Shown here: positions 27,330 to 57,704 of the stretch, piece after piece
Layout of the letters: every line of letters starts with the position of its first letter
How positions within the stretch are numbered: the first letter of the stretch is position 1
From: Thermoprotei archaeon
Lineage (GTDB): Archaea; Thermoproteota; Thermoprotei; Gearchaeales; WAQG01
Length of the DNA stretch: 64,000 nt
Direction of reading: 5' to 3'
Assembly (NCBI GenBank): GCA_038881895.1
Contig: JAVZOV010000001.1
Span: 186,001 to 250,000 of the forward strand
Notes under the pieces: generated by a model
What the model was told of the DNA's origin: nothing
The model's database searches: none
The model's input: the letters and a program-made list of their open reading frames with translations, nothing else
Made by a program: the position numbers and the translations under genes

Positions 27330-27436
27330 GCCGGGGTGACCGAGTGGTAAAGGTGGCGGCCTCGAGATCTATTATAAAAGGGGGACATGAAAGCCGTTGC
27401 CCTTTGGGCACGTGGGTTCGAATCCCACCCCCGGCG
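27330..27436 (+). tRNA. tRNA-Ser (CGA) with a 25-nt intron
   Basis: A complete cloverleaf: acceptor GCCGGGG (27330-27336) pairs with CCCCGGC (27429-27435), followed by the Ser discriminator G. The anticodon stem GCGGC pairs with GCCGT (27393-27397). The loop CTCGAG-A has anticodon CGA at 27363-27365. The long variable arm TGCCC-TTT-GGGCA marks a class II (Ser) tRNA. The T arm is GTGGG-TTCGAAT-CCCAC. An intron of about 25 nt (27367-27391) sits at the canonical 37/38 site and should be removed by the splicing endonuclease. CCA is not encoded. Confidence 0.93.
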
Positions 27437-29837: not shown

Positions 29838-30665
29838 ATGAGAACAATAACAGTTGCGTTAGCCCAGATACAATCAATACCTGCTTCAAAAGAGGCTAAT
29901 TTAAAAAAGATGTACGAATATGTGGATAGGGCTGTGGATATGGGTGCTCATTTTGTTCTTTTTCCCGAGCTAGCCCTAACTAGTTATGCATTAAAGGATT
30001 TATTTTATAAGGTTGCCGAACCAGTACCTGGACCTTCTACTGAAAAAATGATATCTAAAGCAAGAGAGAAAAATGTTTATATTGGTTTTGGAATGCCTGA
30101 GAGAAGTCTCAATGATCCTGGTGTTATATACAATTCTATGGTTTTAGTAGGACCACAAGGGTTAATAGGAAAGTATAGAAAAATATACTTACCTACATAT
30201 GGAGTTTTTGAGGAGGGTAGGTATTTTAGAAATGGAGCAACACCTATAGCAGTTGATACTCAGTTTGGTCGCATTGGTCTTGAAATCTGTTTTGATTTGT
30301 TCTTCCCGGAACTCACAAGATTGTTGGTGTTGAGAGGGGCTCATACTATATTCGTTATTTCAGTTTCGCCTGATATGAGCAGAAACTTCTTTGAATTATT
30401 TACACAAGCTCGCGCTCTCGAAAACACTGTTAACGTAGTATACGTTAATGCGGTAGGGAATGAGGAAGGCTTGGGATATTGGGGAGGAAGTCATGCAGTT
30501 GATGCGCGTGGTAAAGTATTAGTGAAAGCAAAGTATTTTGAGGAGGATTTAGTTACAGCATCGATAAACTTGGATGATTTTTATGCAGCCAAAGAAAGTA
30601 GACCATTATTGAAACACTATAATCCAGAAATATGTAGATTGTGTGCCGAAGAAAAAGACATATAG
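29838..30665 (+). CDS. Nitrilase-superfamily amidohydrolase
   Basis: A carbon-nitrogen hydrolase of 275 residues. The catalytic triad is visible as Glu in LFPELALTSYALKDL (about residue 43), Lys in KYRKIYLPTYGVFEEGRYF (about residue 113) and Cys in GLEICFDLFFPELTR (about residue 150). The substrate cannot be read; the closest match by eye is to N-carbamoylputrescine amidase and omega-amidase relatives and to the glutaminase domain of long NadE. It is divergent from nadE and sits 14 bases before topA in the same direction. Confidence 0.85.
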   Translation: MRTITVALAQIQSIPASKEANLKKMYEYVDRAVDMGAHFVLFPELALTSYALKDLFYKVAEPVPGPSTEKMISKAREKNVYIGFGMPERSLNDPGVIYNSMVLVGPQGLIGKYRKIYLPTYGVFEEGRYFRNGATPIAVDTQFGRIGLEICFDLFFPELTRLLVLRGAHTIFVISVSPDMSRNFFELFTQARALENTVNVVYVNAVGNEEGLGYWGGSHAVDARGKVLVKAKYFEEDLVTASINLDDFYAAKESRPLLKHYNPEICRLCAEEKDI

Positions 30666-30679
30666 TGTAAGGTGATGAC

Positions 30680-32869
30680 GTGTATAGATTGACACTCTCC
30701 ACGGCTGAAGCCGGGAGATTCTCGGTTTGTCGTGGGGCTTCCACTCATTCTACCGAGTTCGGGCTGTGTCAAACCAGCCCCTGCTATGGACATGTAGTCC
30801 ATGGCCCGCTTGCTGGAACCACCCCCGCCTTTCTCGGTTCGGAGCCTTACTCCAGCTTTCGGACGTCCGAACTACATGCGAGCGACCCGCTCAAGGAGAT
30901 GGTGGAATTGGAGGAATATAAACTTAACGGCGATTCATCTCCACGACCGAAGTCGGAAGCCTTCTCGCCGAAAGAGCGGATAATACTTGCAGAAAAACCT
31001 GATGTTGCACGACGAATTGTTAAAGCGTTGTTTGGTTCTAGATATAAAGAGATTGAATTTAAAAAAGGTGTCAAAATTTACACTGCAAAAGACGATTACG
31101 GTAACACGGTCTATGTTGTATCTGCCTCTGGACATTTGTATACTCTGGATTTTCTGGAAGAATATAATAAGGGTTGGCGTTACCCAGTTTTACCACCGAT
31201 TAATCATTATAGATATGTACCAATCGATGGTAAACAACATTTTTTAGATGCTATCAAATACATACTTACACAACTTAACGATCCAGAAATTATAGTAGCA
31301 ACAGACCTGGATAGAAGAGGGAGTTATATAGCAATGCAGATACTTGGATCATTGATCAAGATTCCACTACATTCACCTAAAATAAAAAGAATGGAGTTTA
31401 ACTCTCTTACTGAAGATGAGTTAAGAAAATCTTATGAGAACTTAAAACCTATGGATATAAGCCGGGCATATGCAGGCTTGTCACAAGACCGTTTAGATCT
31501 ATTATGGGGAGCAAATCTCACTAGAGCGTTAACGTGGTCTTATCGAAGGTCTGGTGGAAGAGATAAGAGAGTGATTAGTGCAGGGCGTGTTCAGACACCA
31601 ACACTTAGATTAGTTTACGAACGAATTAGAGAGATTGAAAACTTTAAACCTCAAAAATTTTATGTAATAAAGGCTACATTCCAAACATCCAAAGGGGAAC
31701 AGTTTGATGCAACACTTACAGTTAACAATGAGTCTAGAATTTTTAATAAAAGTAAAGCCGAATCATATGCTAACTTGGCACGTAATGTAGGATGGGGAAT
31801 AGCTGATGTTAAAACTAGATTAGAATATGTTAAACCACCCATACCATTCTCAATATCAGACCTTCAAAGTGAATCACAAAGACTTTACGGATTTGAACCA
31901 ACAAAAACAAAATCTCTAGCTCAATCTCTTTACGAAAAAGCACTAATATCATATCCGAGATCAGGATCCACCATGTTTGATACAAGTCCTGGAAAGCATG
32001 ACAAAGCATACTTCAAAAAAATATTAACTGCACTCTATTCGTATAAGCCTGACTTGGTGAAATTTGTACAAGATATAACAAATTTTCTGCCTAGGCAAGG
32101 AGATAAATTTGATGGAGCACATCCACCAATACATGCTGTAAAATCTATAAATGATACACGCCTAAGTCATGATGAATTAAAATTGTACGAACTAATATTT
32201 AGAAGAACACTAGCAATTCTTTCCCCCGATTCGCACATAAAACGTATATCAATAACAGTCGATGTTGCTAACCTCTTCTTCAAAACAGATGGAAATATCA
32301 TTTTAACACAAGGATGGTTAAAAGTTTATCCTTACTCAAAAATACATGAAGAGCGACTACCAGACATAAATCCTAATGAAAAATTACGAATAATAAAGGT
32401 AAGAATAGAAGAAGATGAAACTAAACCGCCACCGCACTATACACAATCGTCACTTATTAAAACTATGGAAAAATTAGGGTTAGGAACACCAGCAACCAGG
32501 GATGAAGAAGTTCGAATATTGTTGCAACGAAGTTACATCACAGGAAAAACTAAACTGACAATAACACCCCTAGGTAAAGCAGTAATAGAAGCACTAGTAA
32601 ATAAAGTTCCAGAAATAACAACACCAGAAATGACCGCAAACATGGAAAAATTACTAGACCAAATAGAAAACGCAAAATTAGACCCAACAACGTTCTACGC
32701 AATGACAATCAAAGAAGTCAACAAAGCACTAGAAAAATTTAAAGGTTATGAAAAGCAAATCGGTGAAACATTAGTAAAATCATTATTATTACATCCAATC
32801 ACCACTAGAAAGTATAAACCCAAAAAACGCTATAAAGGCCCAAGCTTCAATGATTATTTAGTAGAATGA
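30680..32869 (+). CDS. topA: Type IA DNA topoisomerase I with an in-frame 97-codon insertion
   Basis: A single-strand passage topoisomerase relaxing negative supercoils. The native start is GTG 30680 after GGTGAT. Three codons (V-Y-R) are followed by 97 codons of inserted element E2, then the TOPRIM domain proper resumes as IILAEKPDVARRIVKALFG. Further landmarks: TDLDRRGSYIAMQIL (acidic TOPRIM site; DxD expected, here D-L-D), GLSQDRLDLLWGANLTRALT, ISAGRVQTPTLRLVYERI, and the active-site Tyr in LISYPRSGSTMFD. It ends without C-terminal zinc ribbons. The full frame is 729 codons; without the insert 632. Translation might also begin at the in-frame ATG 30899 inside the element. It is not a reverse gyrase: no helicase half is present. 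Confidence 0.88.
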   Translation: MYRLTLSTAEAGRFSVCRGASTHSTEFGLCQTSPCYGHVVHGPLAGTTPAFLGSEPYSSFRTSELHASDPLKEMVELEEYKLNGDSSPRPKSEAFSPKERIILAEKPDVARRIVKALFGSRYKEIEFKKGVKIYTAKDDYGNTVYVVSASGHLYTLDFLEEYNKGWRYPVLPPINHYRYVPIDGKQHFLDAIKYILTQLNDPEIIVATDLDRRGSYIAMQILGSLIKIPLHSPKIKRMEFNSLTEDELRKSYENLKPMDISRAYAGLSQDRLDLLWGANLTRALTWSYRRSGGRDKRVISAGRVQTPTLRLVYERIREIENFKPQKFYVIKATFQTSKGEQFDATLTVNNESRIFNKSKAESYANLARNVGWGIADVKTRLEYVKPPIPFSISDLQSESQRLYGFEPTKTKSLAQSLYEKALISYPRSGSTMFDTSPGKHDKAYFKKILTALYSYKPDLVKFVQDITNFLPRQGDKFDGAHPPIHAVKSINDTRLSHDELKLYELIFRRTLAILSPDSHIKRISITVDVANLFFKTDGNIILTQGWLKVYPYSKIHEERLPDINPNEKLRIIKVRIEEDETKPPPHYTQSSLIKTMEKLGLGTPATRDEEVRILLQRSYITGKTKLTITPLGKAVIEALVNKVPEITTPEMTANMEKLLDQIENAKLDPTTFYAMTIKEVNKALEKFKGYEKQIGETLVKSLLLHPITTRKYKPKKRYKGPSFNDYLVE
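30689..30979 (-). mobile_element. tnpB-less IS200/IS605-like structured element inside topA (E2)
   Basis: 291 bp of GC-rich DNA between codons 3 and 4 of topA, oriented antisense to the gene. On the minus strand it begins right after TTAT (complement of 30980-30983) and ends ...GAGTGTCAA at 30689. Read on the plus strand, paired stems include CTCC-ac-GGCT/AGCC-g-GGAG (about 30696-30717), CTCGGT/ACCGAG enclosing GTGG/CCAC, GGGCTG/CAGCCC, ATGGAC/GTCCAT, GTTCGGA/TCCGAAC, GAGCG/CGCTC, and an outer CGGCGA/TCGCCG around CGAC-CGAA-GTCG. The length is 3 x 97 and the topA frame has no stop through it. It matches E3 over almost its whole length. Confidence 0.8.
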
Positions 32870-38966: not shown

Positions 38967-39232
38967 TAAAACAGCTTATGTTATCAATTAATTTTATCCC
39001 ATCAAGAATCATAAATATACGTTATCTTTTTAGACATCTTTCAACTACCATGTTATGATATAAAATGAACAAAGTCATCGTGAAATGGGTTGACAAAATG
39101 CAATTTATAGGTGTAGATAAGCATGGACATTCAGTAGTAATAGATTCTGACAGTGAACATGGCGGTGAAAACACCGGATTCAGGCCAATGGAATTATTGT
39201 TAATAGCTTTAGGAACATGCACGGGTATGGAT

Positions 39233-39522
39233 TTGACACTCTCCACGGTTGAAGCCGGGAGATTCTCGGTTCCTCAAGGCTAAGCCTTCATCGTACCGAG
39301 TTCTGGGCTGTGTCAAACCAGCCCCCGCCATGGACATGTAGTCCATGGCCCGCTTGCTGGAACCATCCCCGCCTCTCTCGGTTCGGAGCCTTATTCCAGC
39401 TTTCGGACTTCCGAACCACATGCGAGCGACCCGCTCAAGAAAACATTGTTTAAGCATTTATTTAAGCCTATCGACGATTCATCCCAGAACCGAAGTTCTA
39501 GGCTTTCCTGTCGAATTATTTT
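39233..39522 (-). mobile_element. tnpB-less IS200/IS605-like structured element inside osmC (E3)
   Basis: 290 bp, antisense to osmC. On the minus strand it starts directly after TTAC (complement of GTAA, 39523-39526) and ends ...GAGTGTCAA at 39233. No bases of the target are duplicated, because the osmC frame rejoins perfectly without it. Stems: CTCC/GGAG end hairpin, CTCGGT/ACCGAG around AAGGC-taa-GCCTT, GGGCTG/CAGCCC, CCATGGAC/GTCCATGG, GGTTCGGA/TCCGAACC, GAGCG/CGCTC, and TCGAC/GTCGA around AGAAC-cga-AGTTCT. There is no ORF for a transposase. Confidence 0.82.
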
Positions 39523-57107: not shown

Positions 57108-57452
57108 AAACAAACACTTTTTTTCTCATAATTTGGCCGCTTCTCATGCTCATCTTGATGGAGAAGGGTGTATGTGCTTGTGAGAGAGACAACTCTGAGA
57201 AGCCCAAGAAATACACATGTTCATTCACAACCCAAAACCCAAAGAACATTTTAGCAATACTACACCAGCACTAGATGAAGATTTTGATTGTAAGAACAGA
57301 GTAGTTTATGTTGCAATTCTCCCTAGTATTTAAATAGCTTAAACTCATGTCTTAGTAGCGCTCATAAAAGGAATATCAGGACCTCAAAATTCATCCTTTG
57401 TATATAAGATATGATGTAGTTTTCATGACTAAGATTGGGTTATGTATGATTA
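57108..57452. other. Intergenic region, nothing recognised
   Basis: About 345 bases without a supported gene. A short open stretch around 57270-57400 has no start or family. The region leads into element E5. Confidence 0.3.
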
Positions 57453-57704
57453 TTGACACTCTCCGCGACTGAAGTCGGGAGGTTTTTAGCTTCGTGCTTC
57501 ATCGTACCGAGTTCTGGGCTAGTCAAACCAGCCCCTGGCATGAGCATATAGTCCATAACCCGCTTGTCCGAACTTCCTCTCAAACTTCAGCTCTTGAAGC
57601 CTCATTCGAGTGACTCGCTCAAATAGAAATATCACTCATTATACATTTGAACTTATCGACAATTCATCCCAGAAAAAGTTTTAGGCTTTCTTGTCGAACT
57701 ATAT
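57453..57704 (-). mobile_element. Partly decayed tnpB-less IS200/IS605-like element (E5)
   Basis: 252 bp, same family as E2 and E3. The minus-strand left end follows TTAC (complement of GTAA at 57705-57708) and the right end is ...GAGTGTCAA at 57453. The end hairpin CTCC-gc-GACT/AGTC-g-GGAG differs from E2 (GGCT/AGCC) on both sides, so pairing is kept. GGGCT/AGCCC and TCGAC/GTCGA-type outer stems remain, but the CCATGGAC hairpin and the inner left hairpin are degraded. Confidence 0.75.

Follow-up and report, generated by a model that had tools for sequence, protein, structure and literature searches.

The topA gene of this heat-loving archaeon, which encodes a type IA topoisomerase, is interrupted directly after its third codon by a non-autonomous IS200/IS605-type (TnpB/omegaRNA) element of 291 bp, which lies antisense to the gene and leaves its reading frame open. 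The explanation which we favour, with moderate confidence, is that a copy of a deleted TnpB element was moved into topA in trans by a Y1 transposase, that the main product is now a TopA carrying 97 extra, probably unstructured, residues translated from the native GTG, and that the element probably makes an antisense omegaRNA whose guide matches the empty site. Positions are those of the window, the whole stretch of 64,000 nucleotides that was analysed (G000:C1:186001-250000), which forms part of a genome of 1.75 Mb in 7 contigs (97% complete). Its gene content (reverse gyrase, a topA of archaeal type, TATA-type promoters) marks the genome as archaeal.

Insertion site and native start of topA

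The topA reading frame (30680-32869) extends over 729 codons without a stop. A first-pass annotation of this DNA had placed at codon 4 a mobile element in frame with topA, 291 bp or 97 codons long, stop-free in that frame and antisense to the gene. This description holds to the base (30689-30979): the insert is read from the minus strand, has matches at approximately 40 places in the genome, and the frame is open throughout. Excision of the element on paper joins GTG TAT AGA to ATA ATA CTT GCA GAA AAA, that is M-Y-R-I-I-L-A-E-K, and the joined flanks (MYRIILAEKPDVARR) restore the gene with no target duplication. The sequence from 30980 (ATA-ATA-CTT-GCA-GAA-AAA, IILAEK) is the start of the TOPRIM domain, and the body which follows possesses the catalytic motifs AEK, DLDRRGS and SYPRSG, with topoisomerase III 6k8n as its closest solved structure. 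Since topA begins 14 bases after a carbon-nitrogen hydrolase gene the two are possibly co-transcribed. The features discussed are collected in the table.

Table. Features of the topA locus and of the inserted element (window coordinates)
Feature	Position	Strand	Evidence or remark
Carbon-nitrogen hydrolase gene, upstream of topA	29838..30665	+	
Native Shine-Dalgarno GGTGAT of topA	30671..30676	+	archaeal anti-SD duplex -9.5 kcal/mol
Native topA codons 1-3, GTG TAT AGA	30680..30688	+	relatives begin few residues from same motif
topA body, TOPRIM + Topoisom_bac, 629 codons + stop	30980..32869	+	Pfam Toprim, Topoisom_bac
Non-autonomous IS200/IS605-type element, 291 bp = 97 codons	30689..30979	-	genome copies
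Right-end terminal hairpin TCTCCCGGCTTCAGCCGTGGAGA, then GTGTCAA at element end	30696..30718	-	conserved in nearly all copies
tnpB C-terminus remnant SKRAMDYMSIAGAGLTQP	30761..30814	-	matches C-terminus of full TnpB L059/L052, NILKRAMGY..MAGAALTQPELG
omegaRNA region (predicted), ~208 nt	30689..30896	-	fold z-score -4.0; 8 compensated pairs over 19 copies, lost on sliding
Would-be omegaRNA guide TCTATACACGTCATCACC	30671..30688	-	directly after right end; antisense to topA ribosome-binding site and start
Archaeal TATA/BRE-like promoter GTTAAGTTTATATT for omegaRNA (predicted)	30915..30928	-	GTTAA[GC]TTTATAT in left-end-proximal part of copies shown
Left-end palindrome CGACTTCGGTCG	30944..30955	-	sequence; conserved in copies
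Element-borne AAGGAG with ATG 30899 / GTG 30902 / TTG 30908, topA frame	30893..30910	+	duplex -5.9 / -7.1 / -9.6 kcal/mol

The first-pass annotation had proposed a comparison of the topA start in relatives, and in the relatives compared the N-terminal extension is absent. Their TopA proteins begin a few residues before an IILAEK-type motif, the nearest (same family, 64% identity) with MRRLIIAEKPDVARR, M-R-R-L-I-I-A-E-K, and in 22 of 29 relatives an in-frame stop lies within 20 codons before the motif. Where an NCBIfam topoisomerase model includes the beginning of TOPRIM, its match to the long frame sets in at residue 99-104. Based upon the restored flanks, the starts of the relatives and the upstream stops, the comparison indicates that the native topA start lies three codons before TOPRIM and that the extension is not ancestral. 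A conserved protein domain was ruled out, since residues 1-100 of the extended TopA have no Pfam match and the extension is missing in the relatives. Two findings which the annotation considered contrary to its claim, a second intact topA and an extension common to all relatives, are both absent: reverse gyrase accompanies topA in this genome, and no other stand-alone topA was found.

Searches of 12 genomes of relatives returned no copy of the element, and viral contigs gave no match to its right end or to topA; the contig search for named topA relatives produced a single, distant match. The insertion itself is probably young since a sibling copy in the same genome is 97% identical.

The element, its copies and the predicted omegaRNA

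It is the matches elsewhere in the genome which fix the boundaries of the element, with its right end at 30689 (TTGACACTCTCC, plus strand) and its left end at 30979 (CCGCTCTTTCGG, minus strand). At least 11 copies are full-length, measuring about 290-293 bp with constant ends, and these are without a transposase gene and have stops in all sense frames. Palindromes are located near both termini. The right end is common to the tnpB-carrying elements L052, L059 and L108, and the right-end hairpin is likewise present at the right ends of tnpB-carrying elements. A parental tnpB element sharing the left end was not found in the genome, where only the miniature copies have it. Because it combines the right end of a tnpB element, a tnpB remnant and a conserved structured omegaRNA region, the element is, judged by its sequence, an internally deleted TnpB element in which the omegaRNA region and both ends have been kept. 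No Rfam family matches it. Elsewhere in the window Rfam recognizes a tRNA at 27330-27436 (107 nt, probably with an intron) which ARAGORN missed.

Within the window the element group is represented twice more, by copies or right ends at 39225-39496 (84% identical to the topA copy) and 57452-57566 (76% identical). Copies L009-L022 (alignment A1) look mosaic, the variants CATGGACTACATGTCCAT and TATGGGCTATATGCTCAT being common to otherwise different copies, which suggests gene conversion.

The 208-nt region overlaps the 3' end of tnpB, terminates in a hairpin (CTCCCGGCTTCAGCCGTGGAG + AGTGTCAA) and folds better than shuffles (z -4.0). Its conservation is RNA-like: among 19 copies, 96% of cells are paired as the consensus structure requires, and 31 cells are double-changed, a number which falls to 0-5 if the pairing partners are slid. 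The TATA/BRE-like box lies approximately 20-25 nt before the conserved 5' end, while at the other end conservation across copies stops sharply at TCAA; in TnpB systems the guide starts at such a point (PMC8612924). The would-be guide has one exact match only in the genome. The TATA box which this TnpB/omegaRNA remnant possesses turns an antisense transcript into a concrete prediction, and the element probably makes an omegaRNA which runs antisense over the topA start. Such a minus-strand RNA would begin near 30893, cross the omegaRNA region and exit over 30688-30671, and a TnpB loaded with it would target the empty topA site rather than the present filled one. A promoter on the plus strand of the element (AATATAAA in the opposite reading direction) was also considered and was dropped, its transcripts beginning too near TOPRIM to leave a start codon.

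The TnpB family (PF01385) has 42 matches in the 1.75 Mb, and for the protein of L059 there is a match to guided_TnpB. Of the TnpBs inspected, several have an IS607-like appearance, being preceded by a reading frame which resembles MerR/serine recombinases. In the cognate TnpBs, the family which has its right end in common with the topA element (e.g. L052, L059, L060, L108 and L133), five of five copies have Gly at the usual position of the RuvC-II Glu (MIVLGKLKGI). The RuvC-I Asp is present, as is the RuvC-III Asp in L052 and L059; the RuvC D-E-D active site as such was not found in these proteins. They may be either nuclease-dead or members of a clade with a rearranged site, and clades of the latter kind need not be inactive (PMC10278001).

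Nine of the 11 full-length copies adjoin NTTAC, and TTAC is the target of IS608 (PMC8612924). ATTAT is found at the topA copy, where TTAT would represent a target that is tolerated or else a subsequent plus-strand G-to-A change (Val to Ile). A single Y1 transposase was found in the genome, on the 13.5-kb contig C6; its own element has a TTTAC flank, but hairpins which differ from those of the topA element. We presume that a Y1 transposase acting in trans would have moved the deleted copy into topA, after codon 3 and in antisense orientation. Both the TTAT in place of TTAC and the dissimilar hairpins of the sole candidate transposase count against the explanation which we favour.

Open frame, start codon and possible consequences for TopA

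The first-pass annotation regarded the frame as "kept" open, a wording which the copies do not bear out. With a first-order Markov model of the element, 97 stop-free codons have a probability of ~0.05, a mildly unusual outcome. The topA frame is open in two of the 11 full-length copies, namely the one in topA and a sibling 97% identical to it (L002/L010, G000:C1:62443-62729). The sibling is situated where an SDR-type dehydrogenase gene ends; that gene is read into the sibling in another frame and receives its stop codon from it (...IIIIDGGVVTC, then stop). Selection on the open frame was therefore rejected as something demonstrated, since the copy nearest to the insert has this frame open as well and makes no use of it. 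Probably the insert happened to be open on arrival, which would have allowed the host to survive it; selection may hold the frame open now. By comparison with the sibling, an open frame is not in itself proof of translation. In-frame insertion into a gene is seen once among the 11 full-length copies.

Since the native Shine-Dalgarno and GTG are untouched, ribosomes would read through the stop-free 291 bp and place 100 residues (3 native, 97 element-coded) ahead of TOPRIM. The 97-residue tail, specified by G+C-rich DNA and containing three cysteines, could be harmful or could be cleaved off.

A shorter TopA initiated at the element's own starts is possible, and the annotation had pointed to the internal ATG 30899. 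That codon is indeed in frame, but in the string AAGGAG-ATG-GTG-GAA-TTG it is TTG 30908, at spacing 3, which has the better Shine-Dalgarno spacing and the stronger duplex (-9.6 vs -5.9 kcal/mol). One might suppose that translation of TopA now begins within the element, at TTG 30908 (or ATG 30899 / GTG 30902), with a tail of 24-27 residues (MEEYKLNGDSSPRPKSEAFSPKER...), the upstream GTG being a relic or giving a minor product. We consider this a credible but rather unlikely arrangement. The sequence AAGGAGATGGTGG before TTG 30908 pairs with the anti-Shine-Dalgarno at -9.6 kcal/mol, as strongly as the native site does (-9.5), which tells against initiation at the GTG, and a short hydrophilic tail would be less disruptive. 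On the other hand, in other copies the AAGGAG start block opens frames of 24-78 codons only, which marks it as a by-product of left-end DNA, and the native signals, intact and equally strong, would send ribosomes through the element in any case. We retain the native GTG as the probable main start.

The annotation had also treated topA as an essential-type gene. That is too strong: Sulfolobus islandicus survives without topA, though it grows slowly, according to a passage of PMC8185306 citing Li et al. 2011, and topA therefore need not be essential here. It is conceivable, though improbable, that the gene is a recent pseudogene or a strongly down-regulated allele, its expression blocked by the insertion and the antisense omegaRNA and its tasks covered by reverse gyrase and other topoisomerases. 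The S. islandicus deletion as presented in that passage and the presence of a reverse gyrase gene here are consistent with such a loss, and in an insertion that is probably young (97% sibling) decay would not show yet. The 629 codons and the catalytic motifs are intact, however, and the insertion is in frame and stop-free, all of which tells against such a loss.

A further reading, which we hold to be decidedly improbable, is that an omegaRNA-only transposon locks itself into topA. Its guide, derived from the topA start site, would send TnpB in trans to empty topA alleles, for cutting or, with a Gly-TnpB, for binding and silencing; the ribosome-binding site of topA would be covered by this RNA as antisense, and the host would stay alive because the insert is in frame. 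An assembly artefact, that is, a false join induced by a 291-bp repeat with near-identical copies in a draft genome of 7 contigs, is very improbable, since the two flanks meet in a perfect topA start, in frame and with the right protein motif, a result that no false join would produce, and the exact guide sequence occurs only once.

Relationship to known systems

The topA insertion is a clear-cut natural example of a miniature element, derived from TnpB and bearing a guide-RNA region, which lies within the first codons of a core gene of DNA maintenance and leaves the frame unbroken. One locus thereby makes testable both the read-through of an insert by archaeal ribosomes, by which mobile DNA would become protein, and the supply of guides by omegaRNA-only elements to TnpBs encoded elsewhere. 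It also illustrates that an insert of this kind may have an open frame without selection being responsible.

The element resembles the PATEs (palindrome-associated transposable elements) of Haloquadratum, which arose from IS605-type transposons by deletion of the core (PMC3119063). In common with them it is transposase-free, has near-terminal palindromes, IS605-like ends and a short target, is present in multiple copies and contains a C-terminal tnpB remnant. It differs in that it retains a TATA box and an omegaRNA region of 208 nt whose structure is conserved, in belonging to another archaeal lineage, and in having one copy in frame in a housekeeping gene.

With the IS200/IS605 TnpB-omegaRNA systems ISDra2, IS608 and SisTnpB1 (PMC8612924, PMC10640517) it shares a right-end omegaRNA, the guide of which derives from flanking DNA, and a target/TAM beside the left end, TTAC as in IS608. 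Unlike these it has neither transposase nor TnpB, so that the necessary parts must be provided in trans, and the cognate TnpBs of this genome carry Gly at the usual RuvC-II Glu.

The Rickettsia palindromic elements (RPEs; PMC10969869) are likewise mobile repeats found in frame in protein genes and apparently translated. RPEs, of ~150 bp, encode a conserved peptide and lie in frame in many genes, whereas the topA element provides one in-frame case among 11 full copies, at an N-terminal position, and its openness is not conserved across copies (two of 11 open), so that the RPE-like combination of an open frame across copies with repeated in-frame insertion is not seen. On these comparisons it is an IS605-derived miniature element with a guide-RNA region, lying by chance in frame in topA.
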